DNA of 47,654 bases from Thermoanaerobaculia bacterium (lineage in GTDB: Bacteria > Acidobacteriota > Thermoanaerobaculia > Multivoradales > JAIOJS01). The first letter of the stretch is position 1, and each line of letters opens with the position of its first letter. The notes beneath the pieces were generated by a model, which saw nothing but the letters and a program-made list of their open reading frames with translations, searched no databases and had not been told where the DNA came from. Positions 25,982-46,921 of this stretch are shown here, one piece after another. Made by a program: the position numbers and the translations under genes. The DNA is taken from contig JAUIDB010000031.1 in assembly GCA_030429235.1 (NCBI GenBank), forward strand, positions 1 to 47,654, in the 5' to 3' direction.

Positions 25982-26713
25982 ATGCGTAGGGGGTCTCGAG
26001 CAGTCGTCAGCGGGAGTCGGCATCAGTCAGTAGCCGGCCCAGAGGGAGGCTCGCGGTCGGCCCGCGAGACCCCGATGCCCCGTGCCCTCTCGCAGCGCCA
26101 GGCGGGCTTCACGATGCTGGAGATCCTGGTGGTCCTGGCGATCCTCGGCATCCTTGCACTCTTCACCATGCCGATGCTGCAGCGAATGATCATTCGTTCG
26201 CAGCTCGAGGCCATGGGACGCGAGACCGTGACCTTCCTTCGTTCCGCGCGCCTCGAAGCGATCAAGAACAGCGCTCCCGTGGTGGTGAACCTCAACACGG
26301 CGACCGGCGAGGTCTCGGCGTTTGCCGACATCAACGACGCACTGGGCAACCCGGGAATCGACCTGCTCTACAACCCGCAAGGCGGAGCACCCCCGGGAAC
26401 CACCGACTACATCGTAGTGCCGACCCAGACGCTGACCAAGAACGCCTCCTTCGGCGGACCCGCCGGGGACGCGGCCGCCGTGACCGGGTTCGCCGGCATC
26501 GCCCCCAACTACTCCATCGTCTTCAACGCCGACGGAACGGTATCCAGCGAGGGGACTCTCCGGTTCGGTGACACGCGAGAGAACTACCTCCAGGTCGCGG
26601 TGGGGCCCCGCACCACCGCCCGCGTGAGGATCCTCAAGTGGGATCGCGACGACAGCATCTGGCACCCCCGTGCTCGGGAGACCGGTGGCGTTACCTGGGA
26701 GTGGTACCTATGA
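25982..26713 (+). CDS. Type IV minor pilin / pseudopilin (FimT/GspH-like)
   Basis: This prepilin-type protein (243 residues from 25982) has the peptidase cleavage site AG/FTMLE (G42/F43) with Glu at +5, followed by a hydrophobic helix EILVVLAILGILALF and a GspH/FimT-type beta-rich head. The ATG at 25982 has AGGAG 10 nt upstream but gives a 42-residue leader, long for a pilin. The ATG at 26075 would give an 11-residue leader with a weak ribosome site and may be the true start. Its stop overlaps the ATG of the next gene. Minor pilins of this kind prime pilus assembly at the inner membrane. Confidence 0.9.
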   Translation: MRRGSRAVVSGSRHQSVAGPEGGSRSARETPMPRALSQRQAGFTMLEILVVLAILGILALFTMPMLQRMIIRSQLEAMGRETVTFLRSARLEAIKNSAPVVVNLNTATGEVSAFADINDALGNPGIDLLYNPQGGAPPGTTDYIVVPTQTLTKNASFGGPAGDAAAVTGFAGIAPNYSIVFNADGTVSSEGTLRFGDTRENYLQVAVGPRTTARVRILKWDRDDSIWHPRARETGGVTWEWYL

Positions 26714-27261
26714 AGCGAACCTCGATTGCCTTCGGTCGCGATTCCCAGGGTGGGATCAGCCTGATCGAGACCTTGATCGCCATGCTACTCCTGAGCTTCA
26801 TCGCGATCGGGTTGCTCCCGCTGATGACGCGTTCGGTCCAACAGAACAGCCAGGCCGGGGCCTACTCCACCAGCACCAACTGGGCTCGCTCCAGCATCGA
26901 GGATCTCTCGCAGATCGCATTCGAGTCCCCACGGATCACGATTCCGGGTGGCTCGACCAGTCTGACCATCACCGAGGTCTGGCAACCCTCGACCAGCACC
27001 TGGGTCACTCCGCCCCTGGCTCCGGCGATTCCAGCCGCCCCCACCGACCTCGAGAATAATCCCTGGCAAAGGACGATCGTGGTCGAACAGTTCGGCATGG
27101 GTGATCTGGAAGACAACGGCGTCCTGGACAGCCCGCTGGACGGCTCGACGATTGCTCTCTTCGTGCAGATCAAACGGCTGCGCGTGACGATCCAACGGCA
27201 GTCCAACCGGATCCTCGACGGCACGCCGCCGATCACCATCGATTACATCAAGACCCTGTAA
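26710..27261 (+). CDS. pilV: Type IV minor pilin, PilV-like
   Basis: The 183-residue product has a short leader ending GG/ISLIE (G15/I16) with Glu at +5 (E20) and the helix TLIAMLLLSFIAIGLLPLM. The position after the FimT-like gene, the length and the head region fit PilV, the second minor pilin of the usual fimU-pilV-pilW-pilX-pilY1 order. The ATG overlaps the previous stop (ATGA), showing translational coupling. The head is Thr/Pro-rich and has no cysteine pair that I can see, unlike many PilV proteins. Confidence 0.86.
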   Translation: MKRTSIAFGRDSQGGISLIETLIAMLLLSFIAIGLLPLMTRSVQQNSQAGAYSTSTNWARSSIEDLSQIAFESPRITIPGGSTSLTITEVWQPSTSTWVTPPLAPAIPAAPTDLENNPWQRTIVVEQFGMGDLEDNGVLDSPLDGSTIALFVQIKRLRVTIQRQSNRILDGTPPITIDYIKTL

Positions 27262-27280
27262 CGAAAGAGCCTACGACGCC

Positions 27281-28498
27281 ATGCGACCTCGACTCGTGCC
27301 TCTACGCATCACGAAAGTCCTGCCCTCGAAAGAGGCAGGCTTCACCCTGATCGAGATGATCGTCACGCTGCTCGTGTTGTCCATCGTACTGGTCTTGACC
27401 CTGACGCTGTTCGACACCAACACCCGGTTGGCGCAGGTTCAGACCAGCGTTTCCGATCTGCAACAGAATCTTCGCTCCGCCCAGCAAGTCATCGTTCGCG
27501 ATCTGCGCGCCGCCGGCCGCGGAGCACTGCCCCAGACCCAGTTTCCCGGCACCGTCGGGGGCAATCCCATCGAGGCAATCAGCGTCATCAACAACGTACC
27601 GGCGAGCACCTTCATCGACCCGGGGAACTCGATCCCCGTCCTGGAGGGTACGGACATCCTGGTCGTTCGCGGAGCGCTCAACCAGCCGGTCTGGATGGTC
27701 GCCAAGGACACCGGCGGCTTCACTCGGGACACGGGAAGCGGCAACGGCTCCCTCACGGTCTCCAACACCTCGCTTCCCGGATTCAACATCCCACAATCGC
27801 TGACGGCCCTCACCGATGCCATCAACGCCAACCGGCAGGAGCGCATCGTCCTGGTGAGCGAGGTAGGAGACGAGTTCACCCAGGTCGTAACCCTCGACCC
27901 GGGATCGAGCGCGATCTTCGCTGACTCCGTGCTCCTGGCGTTCACCAGCCCGGCTGGGACCTGGGGAGAGCAGTTCCGTGGTGGTGCGTTCTCCTACGTG
28001 TCCATGGTCGAGGAGTACCGCTACTTCATCGAGGACCGCCGTGCTGTCGCCGGCGACGGTGGTTCGAGCTTGCGGCCCCGCCTGGCTCGGGCCCACGTGC
28101 TCGCCGGTTCCAATACCCCCTACGCGGGGGTCGCCGCGAACTGGAACCGCGAGGTAGCTGACGAGATCGCCGATCTGCAAGTCGCCCTGGGTATCGACAC
28201 CAACGGAGACGGCGCGCTGCTCGACACTCAAAACGAGACCGACGAGTGGCTGTTCAACCATGCCGCCGACGACGCTTCAGTGGCGGGTGGTTGGAACGGG
28301 AATCCACTGTTCTACGTGCGCCTCTCGACGTTGGCCCTGGCTGAGCGACCCGATCGGCGCTTCCGTGCCCCGACCTTCGCCGCCCTCGAAGACCACGCCT
28401 ACACCACCGGCACGGGCGACCTGCTCAACGGTACCGATCGGCGCCTGTACCGCCGCCGCTGGATGCAAACCAACGTCGACCTACGGAACCTCTTCTGA
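27281..28498 (+). CDS. pilW: Type IV minor pilin, PilW-like
   Basis: At 405 residues this is a large prepilin. The leader ends EAG/FTLIE (G20/F21) with Glu at +5 (E25), then the helix MIVTLLVLSIVLVLTLTLF and a conserved QNLRSAQQVIVRDLRAAGRG segment typical of PilW-type proteins. The long head contains a segment near residues 305-320 (ALGIDTNGDGALLDTQ) that looks like an Asp-rich calcium-binding loop; that is inference. It starts 19 nt after pilV and ends 9 nt before the pilX-like gene. Confidence 0.88.
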   Translation: MRPRLVPLRITKVLPSKEAGFTLIEMIVTLLVLSIVLVLTLTLFDTNTRLAQVQTSVSDLQQNLRSAQQVIVRDLRAAGRGALPQTQFPGTVGGNPIEAISVINNVPASTFIDPGNSIPVLEGTDILVVRGALNQPVWMVAKDTGGFTRDTGSGNGSLTVSNTSLPGFNIPQSLTALTDAINANRQERIVLVSEVGDEFTQVVTLDPGSSAIFADSVLLAFTSPAGTWGEQFRGGAFSYVSMVEEYRYFIEDRRAVAGDGGSSLRPRLARAHVLAGSNTPYAGVAANWNREVADEIADLQVALGIDTNGDGALLDTQNETDEWLFNHAADDASVAGGWNGNPLFYVRLSTLALAERPDRRFRAPTFAALEDHAYTTGTGDLLNGTDRRLYRRRWMQTNVDLRNLF

Positions 28499-28507
28499 GA
28501 TCTGCCC

Positions 28508-29128
28508 ATGAGCCAACAAACCGCACCCACACCGCACCTCCGAGCGAACTCCGAGCGGGGTTCTGCCTTCGTGATCACCCTCCTGTCCATGGTGGTGCTC
28601 GGGATCATTCTGCTCTCTCTCTCGGTCATCACGGAGACCGAGCGGCAGATCGCCACCAATGAGCTCATGTCGAACCGCGTCCTGTACGCGGCCGATACCG
28701 GCTTGAACCTCGCCATCGCCCGCGCGCTCACCGTGGGGAGTACCTCCGGCAGCAACAACCCCGCCAACCCCCAACCGATGAACTTCTTCGTGCCCGAGGC
28801 GACCCTGGCCGGGGCGGCCCGCGGCCAACAGATCACCGTGACGCCCTTCTTCCCCCTGCGCGCTTACTACTGCGGAGGGTGCAACGCCGACCTCGGTACC
28901 GACCCCTACTACGTCGTCAACCACGCCGTCTCCTCCACCGCGACGCGCGTGACCTGGACCGGCGCGGCCACGACGCCGCCCGCCACCGCCAGCCGCCTCG
29001 CCAGCAAGCAGACCTACTTCCAGGTCGGTTTCTCGCCTTGGCACCAGCCATCGATCGATGCGATCAACCCCAACAATGACTACAGTGCGATCTCGCAGGA
29101 TACCAAGGGCGTCCACCAGGCTCCCTGA
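28508..29128 (+). CDS. pilX: Type IV minor pilin, PilX-like
   Basis: The 206-residue product has the PilX layout: short basic leader, RG/SAFVI cleavage-like site (G18/S19), a hydrophobic helix TLLSMVVLGIILLSLSVI and the family segment ETERQIATNELMSNRVLYAADTG (here split across about residues 44-68). The +5 Glu of most pilins is absent (Ile23), as is common in PilX proteins. A Cys pair (YYCGGCNADLG) lies in the head. The gene sits between pilW and pilY1, its usual place. GAG shortly upstream of the ATG is a weak ribosome site. Confidence 0.86.
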   Translation: MSQQTAPTPHLRANSERGSAFVITLLSMVVLGIILLSLSVITETERQIATNELMSNRVLYAADTGLNLAIARALTVGSTSGSNNPANPQPMNFFVPEATLAGAARGQQITVTPFFPLRAYYCGGCNADLGTDPYYVVNHAVSSTATRVTWTGAATTPPATASRLASKQTYFQVGFSPWHQPSIDAINPNNDYSAISQDTKGVHQAP

Positions 29129-29233
29129 CCAGCTTTTCCTTCGCCCCTCTAGCGGCCCGCGGGGCCGGAGCGGTCTCATCAGCTCCTTGAAACAGCTACC
29201 CAGTCACTTCCACCTCTTGATCGGGAAGAAGCC

Positions 29234-32200
29234 ATGAAGAAGTACACCCTCTGCCTCAGCCTCCTGCTCGGTTTCGGGCTCCTCGCGTCTCCGGGTCTGC
29301 CCGATGACCGGGATTTCGTGCGAACCTCGGCCGAGGATCCCTACTTCTTCATCATCTTCGACGTCTCCGGTTCGATGAACTGGACGGGAAGCTACGCCGC
29401 CTGCTCCGGCGGCGACTGCATCGCCCCGATGAGCGGCGACGATCCCCTTTCGAAGTTCCACCAGGCGAAACGGGCGATCTACGAGGCGCTCGAGGGCGCC
29501 GAGAACGTCAATTTCGGCTTCGCCACCTACAACCAGGACAGTCTGCGCGTCACCCACAAGCACTTCCGCTACGTGGCCCAGAACGACGGACCGTCCGTGA
29601 GTGGATCCCCGAACAACTTTCCCCGAAATCGAGCCGTCGAGACGTTCGGTCCGGCGTTCAGTCCGTTCTGCGACAACGGGGGCGGCGACAACAACATCGG
29701 TTGCTACCCCAACTGGCCGGCTGATGTGGCTGATAGTTCCGACGGCTACTGGGAGCGCGAGCGCGTCTTGCGACTCCCCAAACCAACTCCCAGCAACTAC
29801 TTCTACATTCGCACCAGCAACGGCACTCGCTACCGGATTCGCTACGAAATGGAAAACGGCACGCAGGTCGGTGACGACAACATCGATGTGCGGGTGACTC
29901 GACGACGCTGCACGGGATCCAACAACCAGTGCAACAATGGTGGTACCGAGAGTGCCATAGTCCGGTATCGACGCCAGGCCCTGACTCTCCCGGCGCCAGG
30001 ACCGGGAGAGCCACCGATCTTCGACGAGTTCCTGCATTGGGACAACGGCGTGCGGCGCGGACCGACGCAACGGGGATACTTCAGCCAGAGCCAATCCTCT
30101 GACATGGGTGTCTCCAACACCTGTGCCGGCTGGGACGGCAACGGCGACTCCAGCTCCGACGACTATTCCGGCTACAACATCCGCTACCCCACCGTTCCCG
30201 GACCGGATCACGCCACCCTCACCTACGGCGACGTCATTCCGCTGAGTTGGAGCGACAACCACAAGGACGACATCCTCAGTCGCTTCGCTCCCACCCCCGG
30301 AATCTACGGTGCGGCGCCGTACTATGAAGACTTCCAAACCGGCGGGCGGAACTACCTGCGGCTCAAGGATCCCAACCTACGGCCGACAGTTCCCCACGGC
30401 TCGACCCCCCTCGCCAAGTCGATGCGTGACTTCCGAAACTGGGTCGACACCTGGTCCACCATCGCAGCGACCAACGACCCTGACTTCGGTTGCCGTCAAC
30501 GCTATCTGCTGATCATCACTGACGGTGCCGACACCTGTGGCGACGCCAATGAGTGCACCATGGCCACCCATCTGCGAAACCGCGGCTTCCTGACCTACGT
30601 GATCGGCTTCGGCCTCACCGGGGGTCCCGCCACCTCCCTGAACTGCATCGCGACCAACGGCGGTACGGGTTCACCCCTGCTGCCCCAGGACGGGGCCGCC
30701 CTGAGTGCCGCCATCACCGACATTCTCAACCAGGTCAAAGAGGCTTCGCGTTCCTTCGCTTCGGCCGCGGTCCCATCCGTCGATGCGAGTTCCGACGACG
30801 CGATCTACCTGACGGACTTCACCCCGATCTCGACCGAATCGACCTGGAACGGTCGCCTCGACGCGTTTCTGAAGCCGCTGCCGCTCACCCCAGCCGGCAT
30901 TCCGGACCGCGCCGTCGCCTGCTCCGGCGGTCTGACCTCTCGATGCCACCTCTGGGAGGCCGGTACCGCCATGCTGACCCAGGCCCCGACGCCCGCCGAA
31001 GTCGCAGGTGGCAACCTCCGTCTCGGGCTCAGCCCGACCCAGCGGCGGGTGTTCTATCCCCACGCAATCGACTACTCCCTGCGCCTCTTCGAGCCGCCGT
31101 CGAACGTCCTCGACTGGCCGCCGCTACTGCAGGATCTCGGGTTTGCCAACACCAACCCGGCGGGCCCCGGGGTATTGCCACGGGCCCGCGCCATCATCGA
31201 AGAGACGCTGGTTCAGAAGCACGCCGACATCCCGATCGATCCGGACAACCCGCTCTCCCCGACCATCCCCATCGACTACATCCTGGGTGACGTGTTCCAT
31301 TCCGATCCGGCAATTCTCCAGAACCCCAATGACTTCAACAAGTTCGCCTCGAACCTGTTCTCGACGGGCGATCCCTGCGATCTCACCGTGTCCTCCGATC
31401 GCGGCTACCGCTGCTTCGCCCAGAAGTCACGCTATCGCCGCAAGTACGTGATCGCCGGCGCCAACGACGGCCAACTGCACTTCTTCAACGCGGGAATCGT
31501 CGATACTTCGACCCTGCAGTTCGACAACGGAGATGGCTCCGAGGTCTTCTCGTACATCCCGCGGATGGCCTTGCCAATCATCCGCGACATCGCCGAAGCG
31601 AACACTCACATCTACGGAGTCGACGGCGCGGTCACCTTGGAGGATGTCTACATCCATCCCCGCGTTGGCTCGGCTGGCGTAGTCGATCCCACGCTGCGAG
31701 AGTGGCGCACGGTTGCAGTGGGGGGCCTCCGCGAGGGCGGACTCAAACTGGGTGGCGACATCGTTCAGATGCCCGAAGCCGCTTCGGCCTTCGCCGAGGA
31801 TGTGCGAACGGGATACTACGCTCTGGACATCACGCAACCCGATCCGTTGACCCATCAGGACGACGGCACGCCGGCGGAACGGTTCGAGCCGGACACTAAC
31901 CCGGTTCCAGGCTGTCTCGTAACCGATGGAGTTACGATTCCTGCCGGCTGCGGACCGGTCCCCTACCCCGCACTCCTGTGGGAGTTCCTCGACGTCAACC
32001 CCGCCACCGGGGAACCAATGGACGAGGATCCGGTACCCAACGGACATGGTGACCTCGGCCAACCCTGGTCCAAGCCGATCGTGACCGGGTTGCAGGTGAT
32101 CGAAGGTGGCAACCTCGTCACCAAGAGTGTCGCCATCGTCGGGGGCGGACTCGATCCCCACAACAAGACCTCGGCAAACCCCGACCAGGGGAACTGGATC

Positions 32201-33307
32201 TACATGATCGACATCGAGACCGGAGAAGCGATCTACAAGCGCCGCGTGCTGGGCTCTGTGCCCAACCTCACTGCGCTCGATCGCGATATCGACGGTCACG
32301 TAGACACTATCTACGCGGGCACCACCGCCGGACGGCTCTACAAGATCGACGTCTCGACGCCGCAACCCCTGGCGACGCCGGCGACGCCGCCGGTCGACGT
32401 TCTCGGCATTGCTCATCCCTCGGTCTCGCGGGTCCTCGCCAGTGAATGGGAACCGTTCGCCATCTTCGAAACCCATAACCACCAGCCAATCTACCTCCCG
32501 CCGCGCATCATCTACGAGGCTCGGGTCGGTAAGTTCGCGGTTGGTTTCGGTACCGGAGACCGTCAGGACTTGTGGAACGAGGACGGCGAGCCTGGACGGT
32601 TCTACCTGATCCTCGACGATACCTACGTGGCCAGCGACGTCACGCTACCCTTCGACGAGACCGAACTCTACGGCTTCGACCCCGGAGATCCACCCCTTCT
32701 CGTGGCGGGTGCGCCACCCAACCTACTCTCCAATCCAGAGTTGGTCGATGTCAACAACCGACCGGGTTGGTATCTGCGCTGGGATCCCGACGAGCGGATG
32801 ATCACGGTGCCGTTTGCCTTCAGTGGCGTACTGATCTTCAACAGCTTCCAGCCGGACATCCTCCAGGTTGGCACGGGTGGCACGGTGGCCTGCGCGCGCA
32901 CCGGAACCACCGGCAACTTCCTGGTTCTGTTGGAGAACGGCAATCCCCTCATCGATCTCGATACCTCGGATGCCGATATCGACCGGGTCCGCCGCATCAC
33001 CGGCTTCATCGCCGCGCCGTACGTCGAACAGACCGCGACTGCCAACAGCGACAGCGGTGGCAGCGGCGGCGGCGGCGGCGGCGGTGCCGGCGGCAGTGGA
33101 GGCGGCGGGGGAGCGAGCGGTGGCACCGACTGCCAGACCGATCCCCTCCTGGTGGCGGCAGCACAGCAGTTCCGCGACCGTGCCCCGCAGGGAGCGAAGT
33201 TCGGCAACTACCTGTTCCGTCTCGGAATGTCGAGTGAGACCGGTGAGCAGATCGGCGCCGCCTGTGTTCCGATCGCGGTGAACCTCCGAAACTGGAAGGA
33301 AAACTAG
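29234..33307 (+). CDS. pilY1: PilY1-like pilus tip adhesin / assembly factor
   Basis: PilY1 proteins sit at the tip of type IV pili, promote extension and act in adhesion or surface sensing. The 1357-residue protein has a signal peptide (residues 1-about 20), a von Willebrand A domain with the metal site D43-V-S45-G-S47 and later CGDANECTMATHL within the same domain, and a C-terminal beta-propeller (about 700-1260) with AGANDGQLHFFNAG and a calcium-type loop DRDIDGHVD near residue 1015. A Gly/Ser-rich stretch at about 1274-1296 precedes a final 60-residue tail with cysteines. GGGAAGAAGCC precedes the ATG. The 105-base gap after pilX shows no clear terminator. Confidence 0.93.
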   Translation: MKKYTLCLSLLLGFGLLASPGLPDDRDFVRTSAEDPYFFIIFDVSGSMNWTGSYAACSGGDCIAPMSGDDPLSKFHQAKRAIYEALEGAENVNFGFATYNQDSLRVTHKHFRYVAQNDGPSVSGSPNNFPRNRAVETFGPAFSPFCDNGGGDNNIGCYPNWPADVADSSDGYWERERVLRLPKPTPSNYFYIRTSNGTRYRIRYEMENGTQVGDDNIDVRVTRRRCTGSNNQCNNGGTESAIVRYRRQALTLPAPGPGEPPIFDEFLHWDNGVRRGPTQRGYFSQSQSSDMGVSNTCAGWDGNGDSSSDDYSGYNIRYPTVPGPDHATLTYGDVIPLSWSDNHKDDILSRFAPTPGIYGAAPYYEDFQTGGRNYLRLKDPNLRPTVPHGSTPLAKSMRDFRNWVDTWSTIAATNDPDFGCRQRYLLIITDGADTCGDANECTMATHLRNRGFLTYVIGFGLTGGPATSLNCIATNGGTGSPLLPQDGAALSAAITDILNQVKEASRSFASAAVPSVDASSDDAIYLTDFTPISTESTWNGRLDAFLKPLPLTPAGIPDRAVACSGGLTSRCHLWEAGTAMLTQAPTPAEVAGGNLRLGLSPTQRRVFYPHAIDYSLRLFEPPSNVLDWPPLLQDLGFANTNPAGPGVLPRARAIIEETLVQKHADIPIDPDNPLSPTIPIDYILGDVFHSDPAILQNPNDFNKFASNLFSTGDPCDLTVSSDRGYRCFAQKSRYRRKYVIAGANDGQLHFFNAGIVDTSTLQFDNGDGSEVFSYIPRMALPIIRDIAEANTHIYGVDGAVTLEDVYIHPRVGSAGVVDPTLREWRTVAVGGLREGGLKLGGDIVQMPEAASAFAEDVRTGYYALDITQPDPLTHQDDGTPAERFEPDTNPVPGCLVTDGVTIPAGCGPVPYPALLWEFLDVNPATGEPMDEDPVPNGHGDLGQPWSKPIVTGLQVIEGGNLVTKSVAIVGGGLDPHNKTSANPDQGNWIYMIDIETGEAIYKRRVLGSVPNLTALDRDIDGHVDTIYAGTTAGRLYKIDVSTPQPLATPATPPVDVLGIAHPSVSRVLASEWEPFAIFETHNHQPIYLPPRIIYEARVGKFAVGFGTGDRQDLWNEDGEPGRFYLILDDTYVASDVTLPFDETELYGFDPGDPPLLVAGAPPNLLSNPELVDVNNRPGWYLRWDPDERMITVPFAFSGVLIFNSFQPDILQVGTGGTVACARTGTTGNFLVLLENGNPLIDLDTSDADIDRVRRITGFIAAPYVEQTATANSDSGGSGGGGGGGAGGSGGGGGASGGTDCQTDPLLVAAAQQFRDRAPQGAKFGNYLFRLGMSSETGEQIGAACVPIAVNLRNWKEN

Positions 33308-43177: not shown

Positions 43178-45577
43178 TTGCGATCTACGAGAGTCCTACC
43201 TACCATCGCCATCATTCTGCTGTTCGGCTTCCCTGCCCTCGGGCTGGCCGGCCCGACCTGTCCTCTGACCATCGACGAGATCTCCGATGTGCAGGCCTCG
43301 GTCGATGTGCTCTCCCCGACCGGCGCCTCTCTCTGTGACGGCGAGAGCGTGGCCCTGGACGGAATCGTCTACGCCGTGTTCCCCGACGTACCGGCGTTCG
43401 CTTTCGCCGACGACAGCGGTCCCTGGAACGGTCTCTACGCCTTCAGCGGCGCCGTCCCCCTGCCCGAAGTGGGAGATGACGTTACGGTCTCGGGTACGAT
43501 CGACGAGTTCTTCGGCGTCACCGAGGTCGTCGTCAGCGGCACCGTGGTTCACACCAGCGGCAATACGCCGTACAGCCCGACCTCGGTCTCGACCCTGACC
43601 ATCGCCACCGGGCAAACGACCGCCGAGGCCTACGAAGGGGTCTTCGTCGAGGTCGCCGCGGTGGAGATCACGGACGCTGACCTGGGATTCGGCGAGTTCG
43701 CCGTCGACGACGGCAGCGGCGCTACCCGAGTCGACGACCTCGGGCCCTACTGCTACCGCGCGGCGGAAGGAGTGGTCCTCGACGTCGTGCGCGGCATGCT
43801 GCACTACAGCTTCGACAACTTCAAGATCGAGCCCCGCACTGACTGCGACTTCCTGACCGGGGGCTGCGGGGCGGCCACGATGCAGAGCATCTCCGCCATC
43901 CAGGGCACCGGATTCGTGTCTCCGATGGCCGGCCAGTTGGTCGAGACGTCGGGAGAGGTCGTCGGCCTGTTCGAGGGCAACTATCCGGGATTCCAGTTCT
44001 TCGACGGTTTCTTCCTACAGGATCCCGTCGGCGACGGACAGGCTGCAACCTCCGACGGCGTCTTCGTGATCAGCGACACGGTACCCACGGTTGGCGACCT
44101 CCTCTCGGTCACCGGTTTCGTCAGCGAGTTCGGAGAGTTCGACGGTACCAACTGCACCGACGGATGCGTCACCATGATCTGCTCCATCGAACTCGGTCTA
44201 CCGGGTCCGCGGACCGCCGGCGGCATCACCCCCGGGACCTGGTCCCCACCGAGCGACGCCGATGGACTCTACGAATACCATGAGTCGAAGGAGGGGATGC
44301 TGATGACCATCCCCGGCTCCGCCAACGTGGTCGGCCCCACGAACTTCGGGGCGGTCTTCGTCGTCGACGATGCCCTGGGCGTCGATCGCGTCCTGCGAGC
44401 CAGCCCCGAACAGGGTAAGCAGGTGGGAGTCCGCAACTGGGAGGCGTTGGGTGATATCGGGGGCTCGGACCCCGACGACCTCATCGTCGGTTCGGTGATC
44501 GAGAGCGTGACCGGCCCCCTTACCGTCAGTTTTGGTGACCCTTTGATCATCACCCAGGCCAGCGGTCCCTGGTCCACCGTGAGCAGCGAACCGCTCCCCG
44601 CCTCGACTCCCGCCTGGAGTGCCGCCGAGGGTGAACGCTTCAGCGTCGCGACCCTCAACGTGCACAACCTCGATGCGGGCGACACGACCGGGGTCGCGAA
44701 GCTGGTCGAAACGGTGACTGCGATGGGCTGCCCGGCCTTCCTTGCCCTCCAGGAGGTCGATACGATCAGCACGATCTCGGGGGACGAGGACGAGGTCGTG
44801 TCGGCCATCCTGAGTGGACTCGCGGGTGAGGGGTGCGACTACTCGTTCACCAGCACCCATCCGGACCGTGGGGACCACGGTGTCGTCGCCCTCTGGCTCA
44901 CCGACCGGTTCACGGGTGCCACGGCCTCCAACCTGCAGGGTTGCTCGGTCAACGGCAGCCCCAGCAGTATCGACTACGATGACTTCTGCGACGCCTTCCC
45001 CGGAGAGTTCCCCCTCTTCTCCCGACGTCCCATCGTGGTCGAGGCCACGCTCGACACCACCTGTGGAACCGGCAGCTCGCCCCTCGAGGTGACCTTCATC
45101 GTGAACCACTTCAAATCACAGCTCGGAGGCGCTCCCTCGGATCAGCGACGACTCGAACAGGCGCAACTGGTGGCCAGCACCGTCGACGGGCTGCTCGCCG
45201 GTGGAACCGACCACGTGCTGGTCCTCGGGGACCTCAACGACTTCGAGGATTCCCCGACCCTGCTGGCGCTCACCGACACCGGCCCTCTCGACAACCTGTG
45301 GAGCGAGGTGGCCGAGGCCGACCGCTACAGCTACATCTTCTCCGGCGTCTCCCAGGTTCTCGACCACCAACTCGCCACCCCGGAGCTAGGGAACGAGCTT
45401 CTCGCCGTCGCTCCCCTGCACTTCAACGCCGACTACCCGTCGTTCGCCTACGGCAGCGACGCCGGCACTCCGTGGGCCCTCTCGGACCACGACCCGGTGG
45501 CGGCAACCTTCTCCGCCTGCGCCGGGGCGCTCATCTTCGCCGACGGCTTCGAAAGCGGCGATACCACGGCCTGGTAG
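43178..45577 (+). CDS. Extracellular nuclease/phosphatase (ExeM-like EEP family) with sorting-like tail
   Basis: The 799-residue secreted protein has a signal peptide (residues 1-about 24), two long beta-rich regions that look like OB-type domains (about 30-225 and 230-475), and a C-terminal endonuclease/exonuclease/phosphatase domain (about 487-780). The latter shows ATLNVHNLD, LALQEVD, IVNHFKS, the catalytic LGDLNDFEDSP (near 683) and LSDHDPV. ExeM/NucH-type enzymes with this layout degrade extracellular DNA. The C-terminus is IFADGFESGDTTAW, identical to that of the convergent M28 peptidase. The TTG at 43178 has GGAGG 8 nt upstream. The stop is 15 bases from the peptidase stop. Confidence 0.88.
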   Translation: MRSTRVLPTIAIILLFGFPALGLAGPTCPLTIDEISDVQASVDVLSPTGASLCDGESVALDGIVYAVFPDVPAFAFADDSGPWNGLYAFSGAVPLPEVGDDVTVSGTIDEFFGVTEVVVSGTVVHTSGNTPYSPTSVSTLTIATGQTTAEAYEGVFVEVAAVEITDADLGFGEFAVDDGSGATRVDDLGPYCYRAAEGVVLDVVRGMLHYSFDNFKIEPRTDCDFLTGGCGAATMQSISAIQGTGFVSPMAGQLVETSGEVVGLFEGNYPGFQFFDGFFLQDPVGDGQAATSDGVFVISDTVPTVGDLLSVTGFVSEFGEFDGTNCTDGCVTMICSIELGLPGPRTAGGITPGTWSPPSDADGLYEYHESKEGMLMTIPGSANVVGPTNFGAVFVVDDALGVDRVLRASPEQGKQVGVRNWEALGDIGGSDPDDLIVGSVIESVTGPLTVSFGDPLIITQASGPWSTVSSEPLPASTPAWSAAEGERFSVATLNVHNLDAGDTTGVAKLVETVTAMGCPAFLALQEVDTISTISGDEDEVVSAILSGLAGEGCDYSFTSTHPDRGDHGVVALWLTDRFTGATASNLQGCSVNGSPSSIDYDDFCDAFPGEFPLFSRRPIVVEATLDTTCGTGSSPLEVTFIVNHFKSQLGGAPSDQRRLEQAQLVASTVDGLLAGGTDHVLVLGDLNDFEDSPTLLALTDTGPLDNLWSEVAEADRYSYIFSGVSQVLDHQLATPELGNELLAVAPLHFNADYPSFAYGSDAGTPWALSDHDPVAATFSACAGALIFADGFESGDTTAW

Positions 45578-45637
45578 TCCCCGCGGCTTCGGCTACCAGG
45601 CGGTGGTGTCTCCCGACTCGAAACCATCCGCGAAGAT
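45533..45637. repeat. Inverted repeat formed by two identical C-terminal tails
   Basis: The last 15 codons of the plus-strand nuclease (45533-45577) and of the minus-strand peptidase (45593-45637) encode the same 14 residues and a TAG stop. They form 45-bp imperfect arms (35 of 45 positions pair) around a 15-base loop. Eight of the 14 sense codons differ, all synonymously. Any RNA crossing the junction could fold into a long hairpin. Confidence 0.85.
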
Positions 45638-46921
45638 GCCCCCTTGGATTCCGATCATGTCGGCCAGGGCGGCGACGTTCATCCGGAGGACCTGATACCC
45701 CATGTCCTGCGTCACGTGCTCGGGAAGGTCGCTGGAGCTGTGGTAGTGCGGATACTGTGACCAATCGTTCTCGATCGTCAGCAGCGCTGGCAGGCCCGCC
45801 TGGATAAAGGGGACGTGGTCGGAACCGAACGCGTTGAGCGTGGTGACGATGCGGAGGCTCGTATAGTGCGCCGCAGCATCGGCGTAGGGTGTGAGGAGCG
45901 ACGCGAACTCGTCCTCGGTCTCCAGGAGACAGTCGAGGTCGGAGTCTCCCGTGTACCCGATCATGTCCATGTTGAGCATGTGCACCACATGATCGTCGTC
46001 TCCCGATGCCTGCAACTCGTCGACCTGGTGGTAGCTGCCGTGAAGTCCCTGCTCTTCGCCCGAATAGCAGACGAAGACCAGAGTCACTGGCGGCGGTGCC
46101 GCGCTGAACACCCGAGCCATCTCCAGCACTCCCGCACAGCCGGTGGCGTTGTCCTCTGCTCCGGGAGAGAAACCTCCCCCGGTGGAGTCGTAGTGTCCGC
46201 CCACGATGTACCACTCGTCTGCACGTGTGGTGCCCACGAGCGTGGCGATCACGTTGTGCACGGTGTAGGTCGAGAAGCTGAACTCGTCCAGTTCCACCGA
46301 CAGGCCCGGCAGGGCGTCGAACTGGTCGAACAACCAGTCGCGTGCCACCACGATCCCCGGTCGGGTGCTCTTGCGATCCCAACCGGCCAACGTCTCGACG
46401 TCCGCGAACCAGCGGTCCCCGTCGATCGCCCCGACCAGGGCATCGATCGCCGGGTTGTAGGCACCTCGCTGGGTACCGGAGGCCAGATTGGAACCCAACC
46501 GCACCACCACCTCGTTCCAGGGCACCTCGAACCACTCGGTGTGCCCGTGCCCCAGCGGGAGGTCCGTGTACAGGTCCGCACTGGTGCGTGCGACCACCGC
46601 GTGGCGACCGCCGCGCGCCACAACCTCGGTCGAGCTATCGGTCAGCTGACGGTAGCCACGCACCAGGATCAGATCCGGCGCCGTGAACGAGGTCGCGACC
46701 GAGAGGGGGAAACGATCGTTCGTCGCCGCGAGCGTCTCCGTGGCACCACAAACCAGCAGGTCGCTCCCCAGTTCGAGCCATCGAGCTTCGGTGTCGGCCT
46801 GCCAGGCGACGAGTGATTCGTATCCCGCGGACTCGATGTCGTAGACACTACAAGACGGCTCCGCCTCCACCGTTCCGGTGGACAGGAGGACCGCCAACAG
46901 AATCAGGCTCGCTCTCGACAT
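45593..46921 (-). CDS. Secreted M28-family zinc aminopeptidase with sorting-like tail
   Basis: M28 enzymes are two-zinc aminopeptidases. The 442-residue product (ATG at 46921) has a signal peptide (SLILLAVLLSTGTVEA) and the zinc ligands in order: H and D of VGGHYDST, D of AEDNATGCAG with the catalytic Glu and ligand Glu in SGEEQGLHGS, D of MLNMDMIGY and the final H in SDHVPF. Residues about 30-190 form an N-terminal region without clear identity. The protein ends in IFADGFESGDTTAW. A reading from 47017 adds 32 non-signal residues. It is convergent with the nuclease, and the shared tail suggests the same export or anchoring route. Confidence 0.92.
   Translation of the reverse strand: MSRASLILLAVLLSTGTVEAEPSCSVYDIESAGYESLVAWQADTEARWLELGSDLLVCGATETLAATNDRFPLSVATSFTAPDLILVRGYRQLTDSSTEVVARGGRHAVVARTSADLYTDLPLGHGHTEWFEVPWNEVVVRLGSNLASGTQRGAYNPAIDALVGAIDGDRWFADVETLAGWDRKSTRPGIVVARDWLFDQFDALPGLSVELDEFSFSTYTVHNVIATLVGTTRADEWYIVGGHYDSTGGGFSPGAEDNATGCAGVLEMARVFSAAPPPVTLVFVCYSGEEQGLHGSYHQVDELQASGDDDHVVHMLNMDMIGYTGDSDLDCLLETEDEFASLLTPYADAAAHYTSLRIVTTLNAFGSDHVPFIQAGLPALLTIENDWSQYPHYHSSSDLPEHVTQDMGYQVLRMNVAALADMIGIQGGIFADGFESGDTTAW

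Follow-up and report, generated by a model that had tools for sequence, protein, structure and literature searches.

The window, which is the whole stretch of 47,654 nucleotides that was analysed, contains two convergent genes for secreted enzymes whose products end in the same short peptide, so that the two tail-coding segments form a long inverted repeat. This arrangement raises the question of whether it is the peptide or the DNA that is maintained at this locus and, if it is the peptide, what protein might recognise it. The features concerned are as follows.

43178-45577, + strand: secreted, tail-bearing nuclease of the ExeM/NucH type (endonuclease/exonuclease/phosphatase fold, with a match to Exo_endo_phos; the ExeM/NucH model is also matched, with a score below its cut-off); signal peptide MRSTRVLPTIAIILLFGFPALGLAG
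45533-45577, + strand: C-terminal tail of the nuclease, IFADGFESGDTTAW, and stop codon; putative strand 1 of a split jelly-roll-like domain
45578-45592, no strand: spacer of 15 bp separating the convergent stop codons; loop of an incidental hairpin
45593-45637, - strand: C-terminal tail of the M28 peptidase, IFADGFESGDTTAW, and stop codon; end of the gene 45593-46921
45593-46921, - strand: secreted, tail-bearing M28-family peptidase (family assignment at E 2e-38), with its ATG at 46921; signal peptide MSRASLILLAVLLSTGTVEA
45533-45637, no strand: imperfect 45-bp inverted repeat made up of both tail-coding segments; absent as a conserved feature in the related gene pair described below

The convergent gene pair and its inverted repeat

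The sequence-only reading of this locus held that the two enzymes carry an identical tail encoded by largely different codons, and that their placement creates an imperfect hairpin of 45 bp. Each of these points was confirmed. Both proteins end in IFADGFESGDTTAW, and the two genes use the same codon at six of the 14 sense positions and differ only synonymously at the other eight. The hairpin is likewise real, with 10 nucleotide mismatches in 45 and a predicted energy of -60 kcal/mol as RNA. Orthologs of the nuclease and the peptidase (66% and 60% identity, respectively) are again convergent in Thermoanaerobaculia MAG_62 (L128), where tails are retained on both proteins (DGFESGDTTAW and DGFESGDATAWTQP). 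The palindrome in this second pair is decayed, as the spacer is 115 bp long and the arms mismatch at 14 of 42 positions. Because the tails persist in MAG_62 while the palindrome decays, the hairpin is considered incidental: the inverted repeat is a by-product of tail-to-tail gene placement, and it is the peptide that selection keeps.

The arrangement in the window is not unique, as further convergent tail-to-tail gene pairs are found at G018:C63:12096-12310 and G383:C173:8573-8775. Elsewhere in the window, positions 25982-33307 hold a run of ORFs that resembles a type IV pilus minor-pilin cluster, with several prepilin-like proteins bearing N-terminal segments of the GFTxxE type and, at the end of the run, a 1357-aa PilY1-like protein with a vWA-like start.

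Exported proteins that carry the tail

The occurrence of the tail was also probed across the 4.85-Mb genome to which the window belongs (G000). The back-translated core of the tail, GAYGGNTTYGARWSNGGN, occurs 90 times in this genome compared with 0 times for a reversed control pattern, and nearly all of the matches are in frame and located at the ends of long ORFs. There are 85 distinct tail ORFs with the consensus [ILV]F[ASV..]DGFE[ST]G[D..][TL]xxW. The Trp is the final residue in 38 of the 85, and in 80 the stop codon follows no more than five residues past the Trp, commonly as WSxxxP and stop. A search of the genome with a 17-column profile adds only a few tails beyond the 85, indicating that the core hardly varies. 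Outside the tail, mean column identity among the bearers is 7%, and these proteins match 73 Pfam families of the kinds usually seen among exported proteins, including beta-helices, FG-GAP, GSDH, M12, M28, S8, trypsin-like, Kelch, endonuclease I, GH44, and DUF1501. The exact peptide DGFESGDTTAW ends 22 proteins and is encoded by 22 different DNA sequences. The earlier suggestion that the peptide is under selection and is not a fresh DNA copy thus extends to the whole genome, as no two of these identical tails are the same at the DNA level.

A crude automatic test detects a signal peptide in 72 of the 85 tail ORFs compared with 57 of 168 other ORFs from the same regions, and restricting the starts to the first 60 codons gives 59 of 85 compared with 44 of 168 (p = 7e-11). 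By eye, about eight of the 13 tail ORFs missed by the automatic test also have a signal peptide. A proteome-wide search for tails of the FADGFESGD type therefore yields about 85 bearers, mostly with signal peptides, so that the tail is neither rare nor a property of cytoplasmic proteins. The tail had been interpreted as a sorting or secretion signal. What stands of this interpretation is that the tail is under selection and is used on secreted proteins throughout the genome, while a classical secretion or sortase signal is probably not involved. None of the Pfam and NCBIfam models match the tails, and a PDB search with the tail returned no match except a chance one of 6 residues.

In a few proteins the motif is internal or located near the N-terminus. 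Four loci (L157, L150, L247, and L332) have it right after the signal peptide and followed by unrelated sequence, a placement that may reflect position-independent action. One tailed DUF1501 protein (L198; G000 C13:154177) has a start, MTTRRGFITGCSAAVAAF, that resembles a twin-arginine signal, and Tat clients may therefore use the tail as well.

In the GTDB contig collection, 38 stretches contain the tail form in which the stop directly follows the Trp; one of these is titled only 'uncultured bacterium', and the rest are named as Acidobacteriota (Thermoanaerobaculia, 'Holophagae', and unclassified). Tails are present in 41 of 59 relatives, with a maximum of 143 per genome, and in 19 of 396 genomes of a sample of the phylum.

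An intact domain and its strand-less partner

Tail-poor relatives offer insight into the origin of the motif, as here it is followed by approximately 200 residues that can be aligned with one another across the phylum. The aligned loci (L145, L225, L229, L230, L238, L242, and L244) all have the motif at the start of this domain, as in the layout of L225, which is a signal peptide followed by QQIFADGFESGDTSAWSKARKPRGLDVSGNAARTGNFGLEIL...SGSFYLDDFQSFRTLSP. The Asp, Phe, Glu, and Trp residues that are invariant in the intact domains are also invariant in the tails, and in alignments the tail falls on strand 1 of these domains. The domain looks like a jelly-roll-type beta-sandwich that starts with the motif. 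Pfam and NCBIfam hold no model that matches the domain or the partner protein described below, and a PDB sequence search with the partner domain gave no significant match. With the motif included, the full domain weakly resembles xylanase C (4xup; E 0.012, with an i-Evalue of 5.2 for the best single stretch), which is only a hint. Four of the intact domains (L229, L238, L242, and L244) contain an early insertion of approximately 40-80 residues with ASGVQVEGTGAT-type repeats, which may be a second small domain.

Intact orthologs of tailed proteins exist (L145 and L242). The GSDH-like (glucose/sorbosone dehydrogenase-like) proteins of G000 (C23:54362) and G038 (L242) share 73% identity up to the end of the G000 protein, where the last residue is the tail Trp and the G038 protein continues through the domain. 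M12 proteases are found in three states: with the whole domain fused (G381), with the tail only and adjoining a partner gene (G013), and with the tail only and dispersed (G000). These proteases are 38-43% identical up to the tail (43% for G000 and G381).

When the motif is left out of the domain profile (A2), exactly one gene is matched in each of G000, G001, G036, G383, and G411. The product is a secreted protein of 215-241 aa in which strand 2 begins within about five residues of the signal peptide, and in every stand-alone partner checked from the tail-rich genomes the signal peptide leads directly into strand 2, leaving a candidate receptor that lacks one strand. The gene in the window's genome is as follows.

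G000 C62:68160-68808: partner gene, encoding a signal peptide and then the domain from strand 2 onwards

The G000 protein reads MKKTATIIGALSALLIGSAAMAQ, then NTVAVDQFV...FDDFQSFRTLAAP, and its counterpart in G411 reads MKRILLALAVLALAASFAGA, then DSLDVNATAALNG...DEFASFRTMAP; the typical partner has the conserved C-terminal end SFRTLAP, as in DEFASFRTLAP. Tails stop between the Trp and five residues past it, and partners start where the intact domain resumes. Since the end of the tail and the start of the partner coincide at this split site, the two together would rebuild the domain with a nick. The receptor that the sequence-only reading had to leave without a name thus has a strong candidate in this small, secreted, strand-less protein. 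Most partners, including that of G000, have no recognised anchor domain; the partners of G005, G028, and G030 are fused to SLH domains and that of G177 to a dockerin.

The tail and the partner also occur together. The partner, detected with its own profile (A3), is present in 28 of the 30 genomes of the order that have at least 10 tails. Across the phylum sample the domain is found in 15 of 19 genomes with tails compared with 3 of 377 others, for which the p value of 6e-21 is not corrected for phylogeny and is indicative only. Kinship was handled by counting genera alone, and the co-occurrence is partly phylogenetic, as 14 of the 18 genomes of the order that are tail-free by profile belong to one genus. 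The only one of these 18 with a partner is G013, in which the genes directly upstream of the partner gene encode two M12 proteases whose tails are divergent (FSDGFESGTMGSWQ and FSDGFEGGAVPGLWSGKTP, each followed by the stop). The partner was not found in the tail-rich drafts G024 and G035 (93% and 91% complete, respectively), in G050, or in the single-tail genomes G066, G202, and G074.

In tail-poor genomes the two genes often lie side by side. A tail gene adjoins a strand-less gene in G054, G025, G046, G010 (three loci), G409, G013, G030, G034, and G018, and this adjacency covers at least seven unrelated tail proteins. The DUF1501 neighbours in G054, G025, G010, and G046 form one orthologous family, making these four cases related; the other tailed neighbours are those at C72 and C160 of G010, the S8 proteases of G409, G030, and G034, the M12 proteases of G013, and an FG-GAP protein of G018 (C224), where the strand-less gene is a second domain gene. 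With 18-80 tails each, G018, G030, and G034 are not tail-poor, and the neighbour is one among many clients. The upstream neighbour of the strand-less gene carries the motif near its N-terminus in G381 and G235, and the strand-less domain genes of G229 and G405 have no adjoining tail gene. In tail-rich genomes the partner gene usually stands alone, with no convincing recurrent neighbours; in G000 the next two downstream genes carry the motif. The gene directly downstream (L278:8995-10994; G000 C62:68994-70993) has its motif, PLFADGFETGSTDAW, in a different, overlapping frame with no stop close by, which points to a frameshift or an assembly error in a tail gene.

A further arrangement is found in G010 (C35; L296:2902-4446, - strand), where one protein of 514 aa has the strand-less domain first and its own tail last, that is, a circular permutation. 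This protein could possibly form a head-to-tail polymer or a self-closed permutant.

A candidate natural split domain among alternatives and known systems

Based on these comparisons, it is proposed, with a probability of roughly two in three, that the tails belong to a natural split domain and are donated to one secreted partner, which would capture them non-covalently and gather them into one assembly, most probably on the cell surface. The domain would be divided over two secreted polypeptides, with approximately 85 proteins carrying strand 1 and the partner carrying the rest. The tailed protein and the partner would be exported separately and meet outside the cytoplasm, where the tail would insert into a groove of the partner and complete its fold by donor-strand complementation. 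It is from the split site that we infer this insertion, and the stability of the resulting complex is likewise presumed. All tailed proteins would be held by the one partner, a many-to-one arrangement that would serve display or retention, and attachment to the surface is suggested by the SLH- and dockerin-fused partners and by those relatives in which the whole domain is covalently fused to the protein. In its broader form the proposal describes a new display system of Acidobacteriota, in which one strand-less protein would capture approximately 100 unrelated exported proteins via a C-terminal strand of 11-16 residues, either at the cell surface or in polymerising assemblies, the latter being considered because of the permuted protein; this broader form is somewhat more likely than not.

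An unlikely alternative is that the tail acts as a linear signal for export or sorting that is read by a secretion system or processing enzyme and cleaved or exchanged during export, with the jelly-roll-like protein as an accessory. The C-terminal placement of the tail, 0-5 residues from the stop, and its many-to-one use on secreted proteins would fit such a signal. Haft and Varghese described for GlyGly-CTERM and rhombosortase that the genes adjoin where there is one target and are apart otherwise (PMC3237569), and the layout of tail and partner genes, adjacent where targets are few, follows the same logic. Against this, only one of the 85 tails is TM-like and none has two or more basic residues among the last six, the rhombosortase model has no match in G000, and T2SS-type secretins are found equally in tail-rich and tail-free genomes. 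A sorting signal also leaves unexplained why the tail is the very strand that the partner lacks, as well as the permuted protein. The known sorting tags were rejected on the absence of a TM helix and of Pfam or NCBIfam matches, and a link specific to T2SS on the secretins of tail-free genomes.

It is also rather improbable that the partner acts in the periplasm as a chaperone or export adaptor, capturing the tail transiently by strand complementation and passing the client to an outer-membrane exporter. The same pairing data would be expected here, and the lack of an anchor on most partners, together with their conserved end, is in agreement with such a role, but partners joined to SLH or dockerin domains, and the intact covalent fusions of relatives, favour lasting attachment. 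Far less credible is the view that the tails are functionless, decaying remnants of truncated C-terminal jelly-roll-like domains. While intact orthologs do exist, DGFESG..W is near-invariant in 85 paralogs with fully diversified codons, so that purifying selection is already seen; moreover, the stop is fixed 0-5 residues past the Trp, and the strand-less partner is retained in nearly all tail-rich genomes. Finally, a DNA or RNA element, whether a bidirectional-terminator inverted repeat or a repeat family inserting at gene ends, finds its strong predicted hairpin at this single locus, and is refuted by the 22 distinct tail DNAs and the decayed MAG_62 palindrome; most tail genes also lie outside convergent tail pairs.

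Donor-strand complementation, on which the split-domain proposal relies, is a known physical principle, but we know of no case in which unrelated exported proteins share a tag that works in this way. A literature search returned no description of such a tail and partner system, and the tail sequence occurs in none of the papers searched. The donor strand has been noted for FimG/FimF/FimH of the chaperone-usher pili (PMC3091844). As in these pili, an incomplete beta-sandwich with its own signal peptide would receive a strand from another polypeptide. In contrast to the pili, the putative clients of the split domain number in the dozens and are unrelated enzymes, beta-propeller proteins, or helix proteins rather than pilins, the strand is C-terminal, and no usher or chaperone is linked; by the Pfam, NCBIfam, and PDB comparisons, the domain and partner have no pilin-family sequence.

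The cohesin-dockerin system is similar in that many secreted enzymes carry a short C-terminal module to which a common receptor binds non-covalently, as would be the case here. The tag described here is only 11-16 residues long and corresponds to the strand that is lacking from the domain of its putative receptor, and the two systems are not homologous; no cohesin is found on the partners, and the dockerin occurs solely on the partner of G177. SpyTag/SpyCatcher is an engineered split CnaB2 domain, with a short strand as the tag and a catcher that lacks this strand. The division of a domain into these two parts is the same in the proposed system, which differs in being natural and genome-wide. 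If the proposal is correct, it would explain the display or retention of a large part of the exported enzymes in a largely uncultured group of Acidobacteriota, and would allow thousands of unknown proteins to be annotated by one rule, wherein a tail marks a client and a strand-less domain marks a receptor. It would also represent many-to-one sorting that needs no membrane protease and offer a natural pair of short tag and catcher that could be used like SpyTag.

The sorting tags GlyGly-CTERM, PEP-CTERM, LPXTG, and MYXO-CTERM (PMC3237569, PMC11980579) share with the tail a homology confined to the tag, many-to-one use, signal peptides on the clients, and gene adjacency mainly where targets are few. 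Unlike these tags, the tail has no TM helix or basic cluster, the one membrane protease compared, rhombosortase, has no match in G000, and the partner is a secreted putative beta-domain. Type IX secretion relies on a CTD of 70-100 aa and on SprA/PorV machinery. Tails of 11-16 aa are far too short for such a CTD; the SprA model (TIGR04189) has no match in seven genomes, and its control is likewise without a match anywhere. Among seven genomes compared with the rhombosortase model (TIGR03902), only the tail-rich G004 has matches over the curated cut-off. These are two rhombosortase-family genes (G004:C23:58363-58806 and G004:C43:242734-243213), and two tag systems may coexist in this genome.
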